From positions 1 through 64,000 of the IMG/VR virus record IMGVR_UViG_3300046787_000390: a stretch of 64,000 bases of DNA, one strand, 5' to 3'. Shown piece after piece: positions 19,344 through 30,916 of the stretch. Under the pieces are notes generated by a model. It did no database searches. It saw nothing but the letters and a program-made list of their open reading frames with translations, and was not told where the DNA came from. Origin of the DNA: a virus. Numbering within the stretch: the first letter of the stretch is position 1; each line of letters begins with the position of its first letter. Both the position numbers and the translations under genes were made by a program.

Positions 19344-19775
19344 ATGTCGTGGCAATATCAAAATCAACTCGTAGAAACTTTACCAGAAGACTGTGTTGGC
19401 TTTGTATATCTAATCACTAACATTACTACTCAACGCAAATACATAGGCAAAAAACTAGCAAAATTTAAGAAAACAACTTACAAAACAGTTAAACTTAAAA
19501 ACGGCACAAAGAAAAAAAAGAAAATTAGAGGAAGCATTGATTCTGACTGGCGAGAGTATTACGGTTCTAGCCCAGAATTAACCAAAGATGTACTAGCATT
19601 AGGCACAGCAAACTTTACTCGTGAAATATTGTTTTACTGCAAATCAAAAGCAGAATGCAGTTATATCGAGGCTAGAGAACAGTTTGCAAGGCGTGTGCTA
19701 GAATCAGCAGATTATTACAACGGGCATATTCAAGTACGTGTACACGGAAGTCACGTAATAGGTAAAATTAAATGA
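19344..19775 (+). CDS. GIY-YIG nuclease domain protein (Seg-like)
   Basis: A 143-residue protein with the GIY-YIG fold signature in variant form: G19-F-V-Y22-L-I and K32-Y-I-G35-K-K. A lysine-rich loop, then DWREYYGSS, FTREILFYCKSKAECSYIEAREQF (catalytic glutamate probably in this helix) and a short C-terminal segment follow. Similar free-standing nucleases in T4-like phages are homing endonucleases or degradative enzymes. There is no separate DNA-binding domain beyond the basic loop. Lies 9 bases after radical SAM 2 and overlaps the next gene (ATGA). Confidence 0.75.
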   Translation: MSWQYQNQLVETLPEDCVGFVYLITNITTQRKYIGKKLAKFKKTTYKTVKLKNGTKKKKKIRGSIDSDWREYYGSSPELTKDVLALGTANFTREILFYCKSKAECSYIEAREQFARRVLESADYYNGHIQVRVHGSHVIGKIK

Positions 19776-20560
19776 CAGTATCTCTATTCGTAGGATGTTC
19801 TTTTACTTCAGGTAAAGGGTTTGATCTTGAAAAAGACGAGCCAGGCCTATGGGTAAATCAAGTACATTCAACTAACAAAGATCTACAAAAAACCGAACTT
19901 GTTAATCACGGCGTCTCCGGAGCTTCAAATTCAGAAATTTTCTACAATGCAGTTAGCGGGTTAGTTAACTTCACTCCTAAGTATATGTTTGTTCAGTGGA
20001 CTCGAAGCCCACGATACAGAGTACAATTAGGTGTTGAATCTTATGTTGCTAGTCAGTACTTTGGTATGGACGGCGAAGTATTTGACCACAACTTGCACAG
20101 TATAAATTACACCGCTGGGTATCTCGAAGATGTAAGAAATAGATTTCTATCGTTACATCATCCGCAAGGCGGAATAGTAGAGATAATTAAGTACACAAAC
20201 ACTCTTATAAATCTTTCAAAAACTACAAACACTAAAGTATTTTTTATCAACGGACTATGTCCGTGGGATGATCAATTTTTTAATAAAATTAACGGCAACA
20301 CTCCAAGCGATTACACCAAATACACACAGTATCTACTAGATTCAGACACTAGAAGCGACCAAGAAGTTTTTACACTTTACAATAAAATACATAACGAATA
20401 CTCACAAGCTGGCAGCATACAAGAGCAGTACTGGATTAATTTATATAATTCTTTCACTGACAACAAAATCGACGTTAACAACGATAATACACACCCAGGC
20501 ATCAAATCCAATCAGCTGTATTTTGACATCGTCAACCAATTCTTAACAAACACAATTTAA
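19772..20560 (+). CDS. SGNH/GDSL hydrolase-like protein
   Basis: A 262-residue protein with SGNH blocks: block I VGCSFTSGKG near the N-terminus (nucleophile Ser10 in GCSF), block II NHGVSGASNSE, and the C-terminal catalytic Asp-His pair in DNTHPG. These are esterases or acetyl-hydrolases acting on carbohydrates and lipids; phage versions could modify surface glycans or act in metabolism. No signal peptide is present, so it should be cytoplasmic. It is the last gene of the gp55 operon; a gene-free gap follows. Confidence 0.72.
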   Translation: MTVSLFVGCSFTSGKGFDLEKDEPGLWVNQVHSTNKDLQKTELVNHGVSGASNSEIFYNAVSGLVNFTPKYMFVQWTRSPRYRVQLGVESYVASQYFGMDGEVFDHNLHSINYTAGYLEDVRNRFLSLHHPQGGIVEIIKYTNTLINLSKTTNTKVFFINGLCPWDDQFFNKINGNTPSDYTKYTQYLLDSDTRSDQEVFTLYNKIHNEYSQAGSIQEQYWINLYNSFTDNKIDVNNDNTHPGIKSNQLYFDIVNQFLTNTI

Positions 20561-20716
20561 GCAGTTACGACTCGCACAGGTCAATATCATGTGCCTAGAG
20601 ACAACTCGATAAAAAGAGGGACGGAAGCCTCGCCGCGCTAGCGAGCACTCAATCACTATCCTTAACAGGACGACGATCGCTTAACACCTGCGGTTTGATT
20701 GTTTGAACAGAATTTT

Positions 20717-21037: not shown

Positions 21038-21319
21038 TTAGAAGAAGGGTAATCCTGACTTCTTAGTTGTTTCCATGTTGTCTTTGATGATAGAACTAAT
21101 AATTTTTCTTTCCTCTTGACTTAGGTTGAGTGCGTGGTCGTAGGTAATGCCTCCTCGCATAAACCATGACATTTTCAAAGCCTCCTGTCTTATCGCGTTA
21201 CAATCGGATTCCATTTGGTCAACGATTTGCGAAATTGTGTCTGAGTCGGATGTCAGGAGGCGGGAGCGAAAAAATTGGACATGTCTAATGTAAGCATCTG
21301 TTGGTACTCTTTGGTACAT
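21038..21319 (-). CDS. Downstream (-1) frame of gp26; hub-assembly or chaperone-like
   Basis: A 93-codon frame if started at the ATG at 21319, but that ATG lies inside gp26 and has no ribosome site. The frame is -1 relative to gp26, and both share the slippery heptamer T TTT TTC at 21274-21268. A slip there would yield a fusion of 275 gp26 residues plus 76 residues of this frame (about 351 in all). The C-terminal sequence has MSWFMRGGITYDHALNLSQEER and a closing TTKKSGLPFF. The segment may correspond to a T4 hub-assembly protein such as gp51, but I am unsure. Placement next to the tape-measure gene resembles the lambda G/GT chaperone pair. Confidence 0.6.
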   Translation of the reverse strand: MYQRVPTDAYIRHVQFFRSRLLTSDSDTISQIVDQMESDCNAIRQEALKMSWFMRGGITYDHALNLSQEERKIISSIIKDNMETTKKSGLPFF

Positions 21320-22116: not shown

Positions 22117-24228
22117 ATGGCTAACCAATACACCCCCGACGAAATCCAGGCAATCTTTGATCGCTATCACGAAGCAATTAACAAGGGCATACCTGTTACT
22201 AAGGAGCTGGCTGAAGAGCTAGCGGATGCAAAAAAGGGTATTAAAAACTACACTTTTACCCTGAATCAAAGTCTCAAGCAGCTGGGACAAACTACTAAGC
22301 AAACAATTGGGAATATTGCAAACGGAGCCAAGGGCGTTTCTGTATTCAATGACAATCTAAGTGCTGCTGCTGACACTGCATCTGTGGTGGCTGCTAGTTT
22401 TGGTCCTCTAGGCGTAGCAGTTGGGTTAGTTGTAAAAGCTCTAACATTCTTTGCTACTACAGCTAACAAACAAAGTGACAAGTTATTCGAAACCTTTCAA
22501 AATCTAAGTAGATCAGGTTCAGTTGGCGCACAAGGCATGACTGATGTATTCCAGAGCATGAAACGCTTTGGATATACAATTGATGAACTGGACAAAATGA
22601 CCACTGTGCTTGCAGAAAACAGCCGTGATTTTGCAATGTTCAGCGGCACTGCTGCTACAGGTGGCAAGCAATTAAGTCAGTTAGTTGACGGGTTTAAAGA
22701 TGCAAGAGTTAACTTGCAAGCCCTAGGTGTAAGCACTGATGAACAAGTTCGTGGTGCCGCCGGATACTACAAACAACTGGGACGTCTTGGCCGCGCAACT
22801 GAAGCTACTTCATCAGGTGCTCTTGCTTACATTAAAGAAATGGAGACAATGACTAGGCTAACTGGTCTCCAACGAGCTGACTTAGAAGCACAACGTGAAC
22901 AAGCAGAAGCAATTGATGCATTCCAGGCAGCACTAGCAGATGCTGGACCTGCTGCTGCTAAAAACATGGATGAAACATTTAAACGTTTGGCGGCAATCGA
23001 TCCAGAAATTGCACAAGGTTATGCAGAATCTGTAAACGGTATTATTACTGGTAGTGAAGCGCAGATGAAGTATTTGCGTTCTACCAACTTTGAAGGGCTA
23101 GAACTAGCACAACGAACAACATATGACTTGTCAATGACAGCATCCAAGGTTGGCGACTCACTGGCTGATTTGTATAAAGGCAATCAGCAATTACAAAGAG
23201 ACTTTGCTAGAGTCGGAGTTGATTATTTTGGTAAAGGTCGTTCACACACAATCTTAGCAAACAAAGAATTCTCTAAAGCAACTGGTAAAGCAACTGAAGA
23301 AGTAGAAGGCCTGTATGCAGGACTTGATGCAGCAACTAAAGCCCAGGCTGAAGCTAGAGTTTCGCAGATTGATGCGTCAAACAATATGCAGAGCTTTGTA
23401 AACATTGGAGTAGCGCCTGCAACTCGAGCACTGGCATATCTAACTGAAGTTGTTGAAAACTTAACTAGTATTCTACCTGGTGGCAGAAGCAAAGGATACG
23501 GGCAATCTGGAACAGGAACTCAAGGCGGCAGTCTTGCAGCCACAGGTGCAGGCGTAGCAGCCGGTGCCGCAGCCGGTAGTTTTCTTGGGCCATTGGGAAC
23601 AGTTGCAGGTGGCGCAATTGGTGGCCTGGCAGGATTTGCTGGATATCAAATGCACGGCGGAGCAGGCGGTACTACAGCAGGCTTGAGAATAAAAAGTCCC
23701 GAAGCAACTGCTGGTGGAGAAGCAAACGCAAATCTTTATGCGTTAGCACAACGAATTCAAAATCAACTCGGCGGAGATCTACACCATTTTAGTGCGTTTA
23801 ATGACAGTTATCATCAAGGAACCAACAGCGCACATACCCGAGGTACCGCACTTGATTTTACATTAACTGATCCTAGTAAGGCTGCACAAATTGCCGGAGT
23901 CCTCCGTGGCATGCCTGGCGTAGCAAAAGTTCTAGACGAGTATACTAATCCTAGCAGTAGAGCAACTGCCGGGCACATCCATGCTGAAATTAACGGATTT
24001 GCTGGATTCAGAGGATCTTTATCTGGGCCAATGAGTGGATACAGTCCTAACGTTTTAATGCATGGCAACGAAGAATTGTCTATTAGACCAGCTGGTGGTT
24101 CGTCAAATTCAAATTCGGGTGCAAGTGAAGGCACTATGATGAAGCTGATTGAACGAGTGGATGACTTGATTTATTTGAACAAGAGCCAACTCAGCACAGC
24201 CGAGAAAATGTTAAAGTATCAACAGTAA
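22117..24228 (+). CDS. 29: Tape-measure/hub protein with C-terminal M15-type peptidase domain
   Basis: A 703-residue protein from the ATG at 22117 (an in-frame ATG at 22084 is an alternative). The N-terminal two thirds are helical and Ala/Gln-rich with an early hydrophobic region (VVAASFGPLGVAVGLVVKALTFF), typical of tape-measure proteins. A glycine/alanine-rich hydrophobic segment lies near residues 465-510. The C-terminal domain carries H573-x6-D580 in NSAHTRGTALDF and H620-x-H622 in GHIHAEI, the zinc-binding pattern of D-Ala-D-Ala (VanY/M15-type) peptidases. It probably measures tail length and cuts peptidoglycan during DNA entry, filling the role of the lysozyme missing from gp5. Equivalence to T4 gp29 is inferred. 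Confidence 0.72.
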   Translation: MANQYTPDEIQAIFDRYHEAINKGIPVTKELAEELADAKKGIKNYTFTLNQSLKQLGQTTKQTIGNIANGAKGVSVFNDNLSAAADTASVVAASFGPLGVAVGLVVKALTFFATTANKQSDKLFETFQNLSRSGSVGAQGMTDVFQSMKRFGYTIDELDKMTTVLAENSRDFAMFSGTAATGGKQLSQLVDGFKDARVNLQALGVSTDEQVRGAAGYYKQLGRLGRATEATSSGALAYIKEMETMTRLTGLQRADLEAQREQAEAIDAFQAALADAGPAAAKNMDETFKRLAAIDPEIAQGYAESVNGIITGSEAQMKYLRSTNFEGLELAQRTTYDLSMTASKVGDSLADLYKGNQQLQRDFARVGVDYFGKGRSHTILANKEFSKATGKATEEVEGLYAGLDAATKAQAEARVSQIDASNNMQSFVNIGVAPATRALAYLTEVVENLTSILPGGRSKGYGQSGTGTQGGSLAATGAGVAAGAAAGSFLGPLGTVAGGAIGGLAGFAGYQMHGGAGGTTAGLRIKSPEATAGGEANANLYALAQRIQNQLGGDLHHFSAFNDSYHQGTNSAHTRGTALDFTLTDPSKAAQIAGVLRGMPGVAKVLDEYTNPSSRATAGHIHAEINGFAGFRGSLSGPMSGYSPNVLMHGNEELSIRPAGGSSNSNSGASEGTMMKLIERVDDLIYLNKSQLSTAEKMLKYQQ

Positions 24229-30839: not shown

Positions 30840-30916
30840 TGGTGCGCTATGCGGGAATCGAACCCGCTTCCTACTGGTTTAGAATCAGTTGCCCGGACCA
30901 TCTGGGCACATAGCGC
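30840..30916 (-). tRNA. tRNA with CUA anticodon (amber-decoding, suppressor type)
   Basis: A 77-base cloverleaf with encoded CCA. Acceptor GCGCTAT/ATAGCGC is perfect; D stem GCCC/GGGC; T arm GCGGG-TTCGATT-CCCGC is canonical; discriminator A73. The anticodon arm is ACTGA-TTCTAAA-CCAGT, with four pairs plus an A31-C39 mismatch; loop geometry puts C34-T35-A36 as anticodon, preceded by U33 and followed by A37-A38 as usual for tRNAs reading UNN codons. A UCU (Arg) reading would need misaligned stems and is rejected. Positions 8-9 are G-T rather than the usual T8. The charged amino acid cannot be read from sequence; the short variable loop argues against Ser, Leu and bacterial Tyr types. Confidence 0.85.

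Follow-up and report, generated by a model that had tools for sequence, protein, structure and literature searches.

The gp26-like gene and its overlapping frame

The window analyzed here is a stretch of 64,000 nt, positions 1 to 64,000 of the IMG/VR virus record IMGVR_UViG_3300046787_000390. It carries a gene for a protein of family PF12322, to which gp26 and gp51 of phage T4 belong. The Pfam profile search gave 64.1 bits against a curated cut-off of 24.5, and the PHROG match is PHROG 150 (baseplate hub). We refer to this gene as "gp26-like" (Table 1). Its 3' end reads AAT TTT TTC GCT CCC GCC TCC TGA, i.e., four sense codons lie between a U UUU UUC slippery heptamer and the stop codon. A first-pass annotation of the same DNA had reported a heptamer in the phase of gp26 at this distance from the stop, and the sequence agrees. 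It had also described 76 further codons in the −1 frame and a fusion of about 351 residues; recomputing gave the same values, with a predicted fusion of 351 aa. The word TTTTTTC is uninformative by itself, since it occurs 18 times in the window against an expectation of 21.3; place and phase are what count.

Two ATG codons lie in the −1 frame. For the upstream one, the claim of the first-pass annotation that it has no ribosome site holds, as no Shine-Dalgarno (SD) sequence is found there. The internal one, with a strong AGGAGG 8 nt upstream, had been overlooked, as had a potential stem downstream of the heptamer.

Table 1. Positions of the features discussed in the text, numbered from the first letter of the window
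Feature	Position	Strand	Evidence or remark
gp26-like gene (PF12322); predicted short isoform (TAC-N like), 279 aa	22092 (ATG)–21253 (TGA)	minus	translation, Pfam, PHROG
Slippery heptamer U UUU UUC (TTTTTTC)	21274–21268	minus	sequence; in phase with gp26
−1 frame after the predicted slip: FF + 76 codons, TAA at 21038	21274–21038	minus	predicted C-terminal extension, long isoform
Upstream ATG of the overlapping frame	21319–21317	minus	no SD sequence
Internal ATG of the −1 frame; 44-aa product MSWFMRGG...	21172–21170	minus	AGGAGG at 21186–21181; possible extra initiation
Putative stem, 5' arm GCCTCCTG	21261–21254	minus	6 nt past the heptamer
Putative stem, 3' arm CAGGAGGC	21187–21180	minus	pairs with the 5' arm; AGGAGG (21186–21181) inside
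ORF of the divergent neighbor, likely tape-measure protein	22117–24228	plus	identity inferred

The divergent neighbor of the gp26-like gene has no PHROG or Pfam match, and its identification as a tape-measure gene in the first-pass annotation is thus without family support. In phage RaK2, the annotation of the equivalently placed neighbor notes similarity to a tape-measure protein. We regard the adjacency of the gp26-like gene to a tape-measure gene as likely.

Several other features of the window were recorded. Its only tRNA (30840–30916, minus strand) has a CTA anticodon and is called tRNA-Pyl by ARAGORN; it is possibly a phage amber-suppressor tRNA, and TAG might be read through in some genes. 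A Polynucleobacter-1 RNA (Rfam RF01718; 91 bits, E 1e-19) lies at 20569–20704 on the plus strand, in the gap downstream of the ORF at 19772–20560. Lastly, two adjacent, overlapping radical SAM-like genes (PF04055; 17443–18306 and 18231–19334, plus strand; the second just under the cut-off) adjoin a probable recombination endonuclease gene.

Conservation of the slippery heptamer

A tblastn search with gp26 gave matches in 65 phage records, mostly of jumbo phages. The downstream frame is present in Atu_ph07, Phosso, and the Serratia BF/Erwinia group, and a scan of viral contigs with this frame yielded 80 loci. All 88 loci with a match to the downstream frame (69 distinct sequences) have an in-phase TTTTTTC close to the gp26 stop codon; the heptamer played no part in selecting them, and, because the relatives counted share ancestry, these and the following counts are non-independent trials. 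Among annotated phage records, 13 of 16 have the in-phase heptamer, and two more (XacN1 and RAS14) have TTTTTTT. Most of the isolated jumbo phages that were sampled carry it. Carriers picked by gp26 alone include PA5oct, MIJ3, PBECO4, RaK2, GAP32, and CBB, as well as XbC2, XaC1, PHA46, Hallingskeid, Salicola phage SCTP-2, and Vibrio phage 2.275. A scan with S-SSM7 gp26 only found T TTT TTC in 76 of 76 distinct complete cyanophage-like loci, the next base being G in 73. The heptamer is also found in KVP40-like phages and Delftia phage PhiW-14, and Rhizobium phage RHph_N34 has TTTTTTG.

In all 59 distinct freshwater relatives, T is the last base of the codon that precedes the run (AAT, AGT, ACT, or CGT); elsewhere in the gene, the same residues have T-ending codons in 28–53% of cases. 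Conservation of heptamer and overlap in related gp26 genes, which had been suggested as a check, is seen in these loci. An in-phase heptamer followed by an overlapping −1 ORF, both conserved in relatives, is the arrangement of the lambda G/GT type. Nearly all relatives checked retain the slip site, and the frameshift is therefore very probably real.

Variant junctions are seen in a few genomes. In Microcystis phage Mel-JY01 (L096, 2234–2470), the extension-like ORF is in the +1/−2 frame, rather than the −1 frame, relative to the gp26-like gene that it overlaps; the junction reads TTTTTTT, which could permit a −2 or +1 shift. The extension-like ORF of LR756508 (L103, 2219–2506) is likewise in the +1/−2 frame. 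Stenotrophomonas phage IME-SM1 (L223, ~1740) has a run of five Ts where relatives have T TTT TTC. As a consequence, the deposited frame differs, and the deposited gp26 reads 281 codons into another frame; this is possibly a homopolymer sequencing error or a lineage with a changed signal. LR756511, a 595-kb uncultured phage (L098, 2195–2430), has GGG TTT TTT C near the end of its gp26-like gene and an extension-like −1 ORF of ~75 codons, and is, by its sequence, a distant member.

Start codons and coding constraint in the −1 frame

If the downstream frame were instead a separate small gene, expressed from a start of its own (ATG 21319 or 21172) by re-initiation or internal initiation, the heptamer would be incidental. 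The start codons of the relatives bear directly on this explanation. A −1-frame start codon of any kind is present upstream of the heptamer in 17 of the 59 freshwater relatives and in none of the remaining 42, and in several relatives a −1-frame stop codon lies 0–9 nt before the heptamer. In 14 of the 59, the first start comes no earlier than 20 codons past the slip site, and four cyanophage-like loci have none within the first 15 codons. The best case for a separate gene is the internal ATG of the window with its well-placed AGGAGG: the corresponding Met is present in 40 of the 59 relatives, 29 of which have an SD-like sequence. Similarly, an ATG is often found just past the gp26 stop in cyanophages, and databases annotate separate genes. 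However, the internal Met is missing from 19 of the 59, and the internal ATG is thus at most an extra start. Moreover, the codons that precede it are conserved and constrained. The first codons after the slip are conserved, and the median dN/dS of the −1 frame is ~0.15 for codons 8–33, before the internal start site, and ~0.07 for codons 34–78, after it. The −1 frame is under purifying selection. A separate gene would also leave unexplained both the invariance of the heptamer and the in-frame fusion found in T4 gp51 (see below). We consider this explanation very unlikely, and note that the upstream in-frame ATG of the window and its internal ATG with a good SD sequence are points against frameshifting.

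In public records, the extension is listed as separate small hypothetical genes (L002 gp687, L003 gp247, and L005 gp526). The cyanophage extension is annotated "gp51" (S-SSM7 gp51), and several annotated extension genes begin at internal start codons.

A putative stimulatory RNA stem

The two arms of the putative stem in the window (Table 1) have counterparts in other clades: CGCCTCCT, AGGCTTTTG, or AGGCTCTTG serves as the 5' arm there, and the position of its complement varies. Arms paired with their own partner gave −16.3 kcal/mol versus −13.1 kcal/mol when partners were swapped (0 of 20000 permutations), and the same comparison with control arms from the same sequences was not significant. 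In one clade, 5 of 13 sequences have a double change from U-A to C-G. Within the window's own stem clade, the arms hardly vary and there is little covariation. Whole-segment RNA folding of the window segment was no better than that of shuffles (z 0.13), and a test of the stem by shuffling synonymous codons was weak (mean z −1.3; window p 0.40), perhaps because the permuted codons retain AGGAGG words. We regard a stem ~6 nt after the heptamer, covarying between clades, as likely, not proven.

The position of AGGAGG within the 3' arm raises the possibility that both routes operate, with frameshifting producing the long isoform and internal initiation producing a free 44-aa C-terminal segment, whose SD sequence the stem would hide. 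The SD sequence does lie inside the 3' arm in the window's clade. However, the conserved Gln-Glu-Ala codons themselves dictate an SD-like sequence, the Met is not conserved, and the position of the stem varies between clades; we consider the production of both unlikely. There is also a slim chance that the stem is a conserved regulatory element that stimulates the slip and, in the window's clade, additionally hides the ribosome-binding site of the C-terminal segment, such that the one gene would yield three products in set ratios.

A run of six Ts can in principle permit polymerase slippage, and the long product could then result from slippage during transcription of the U6 run, not from ribosomal slipping. 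Against this, an exact T TTT TTC in a conserved phase, with a stem 6 nt further on, is a signature of ribosomal −1 frameshifting, and only XacN1 and RAS14, among the phages checked, have runs longer than six Ts. Transcriptional slippage is therefore an extremely improbable source of the long product.

Relationship to T4 gp26 and gp51

Both gp26 (208 aa) and gp51 (249 aa) of T4 match PF12322. T4 gp26 ends in GLKEFFELL, with GAG TTC TTT GAG at the site of interest: the two Phe residues are kept, and neither the heptamer nor a −1 frame is present. The alignment of the cyanophage fusion with T4 gp51 continues across the junction (DFFRL in the fusion, DVFKL in gp51) and the extension, with a probability of 99% and an E-value of 1e-18. 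The freshwater fusion, in turn, aligns with the cyanophage fusion along its length (E 6e-19). A direct HMM comparison of the extension of the window's clade with the C-terminus of T4 gp51 gave a weak match (probability 27%), and the freshwater extension is therefore tied to gp51 via the cyanophages. By this route, the long form corresponds to the short form plus a C-terminal extension and is colinear with gp51. PHROG 634 (baseplate hub assembly catalyst) is a match for the cyanophage extension as well as for the C-terminal region of gp51.

There is one PF12322 copy in the frameshift genomes that match the family and two in T4; Salicola phage SCTP-2 and Mel-JY01 fell below the threshold of this search. 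The 133-kb record to which the window belongs, which is possibly incomplete, has one copy, i.e., a frameshift in place of the two-gene arrangement of T4. The gp26 and gp51 proteins of the T4 group form one clade (SH-aLRT 96), which fits a single duplication. Judged by the alignments, T4 gp26 is the counterpart of the predicted unshifted product and T4 gp51 that of the fusion.

The first-pass annotation had named relatives that lack the heptamer and have the downstream frame as a separate gene as the observation that would speak against frameshifting. Such relatives did not turn up in that form: in the main heptamer-less lineage (T4, 44RR, and Krischvirus), the extension is in frame on the paralogue gp51.

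A model for two chaperone isoforms

Tail assembly chaperones of the lambda gpG/gpGT type, reportedly the subject of work by Xu, Hendrix, and Duda in 2004, offer a close comparison. The window resembles that system in having a short ORF with an overlapping −1 frame, a slippery heptamer in phase, and a probable tape-measure neighbor. It differs in the heptamer itself, which is U UUU UUC, and in that the gene is divergent from its neighbor rather than directly upstream on the same strand. The window gene has no sequence match among the Pfam tail assembly chaperone families, and a sequence search of solved structures gave nothing meaningful. Vandenendeviridae/Andersonviridae (phage Adele, PMC12846349) likewise have a −1 shift at a conserved poly-T that ends the short chaperone gene, with a downstream ORF otherwise annotated as hypothetical, as here. 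That system belongs to other phage families and has the motif GTTTTT.

We are highly confident, from the sequence evidence, that the gp26-like gene would give rise to two tail assembly chaperone isoforms by −1 frameshifting on U UUU UUC; the slipping, its rate, and the chaperone roles are what we infer. Most ribosomes would end at the TGA, giving a short gp26-like protein of 279 aa. A minority would slip by −1, aided by the stem ~6 nt downstream, giving a protein of 351 aa with a second small C-terminal domain. If the analogy to lambda gpG/gpGT holds, coating of the tape-measure protein would fall to the short form, and recruitment of the tube protein to the extension of the long form. Phages of the T4 group would encode each form in a gene of its own: gp26 the short one, and gp51 the short one with the extension fused in frame. 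The suggestion of the first-pass annotation that this is the T4-like version of the lambda G/GT frameshift is thus strongly supported, by heptamer conservation, by the lack of an alternative start in most relatives, by purifying selection, and by colinearity with gp51.

Relation to earlier work and implications

Vladimirov, Gautam, and Davidson reportedly described in 2022 (Virology) several T4-like groups in which frameshifting persists, with T4 relying on genes 26 and 51. Passages of two later papers cite Vladimirov et al. 2022: one mentions that in some T4-like phages a short and a fused copy of the chaperone gene take the place of frameshifting (PMC10885494), and the other that the short chaperone gene of T4-like phages contains poly-T slippery sequences (PMC12846349). 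From these passages, the first-pass annotation appears to have been wrong in stating that no frameshift had been described for gp26, and the case in the window is not new in kind, since a T4-like chaperone frameshift has been published. Gp26 and gp51 have been listed as hub assembly chaperones, and gp51 as an essential protein that is missing from the particle and whose function is unknown (PMC3004832). The T4-like proteins share with the window a single protein family, a short and a C-terminally extended form and, in T4-like phages, a poly-T slippery site near the end of the short gene; T4 itself has two genes and no heptamer, whereas the phage in the window has one gene and a predicted frameshift. 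A search of the open literature, with Vladimirov et al. 2022 outside it, turned up no publication that describes gp26 frameshifting in jumbo phages. Vladimirov et al. 2022 aside, we found no description of this freshwater clade and its RNA stem, which are possibly new.

The heptamer and stem are testable signals, and they open no new kind of system. A gp26 frameshift would be widespread in the T4-like world, spanning cyanophages, KVP40-like phages, jumbo phages, and uncultured freshwater phages. Many small genes annotated as "hypothetical" or "gp51" would be explained as the C-terminal part of one protein, and their annotation corrected. The same reading would give an origin for the two genes with which T4 makes what most of its relatives would make from one.
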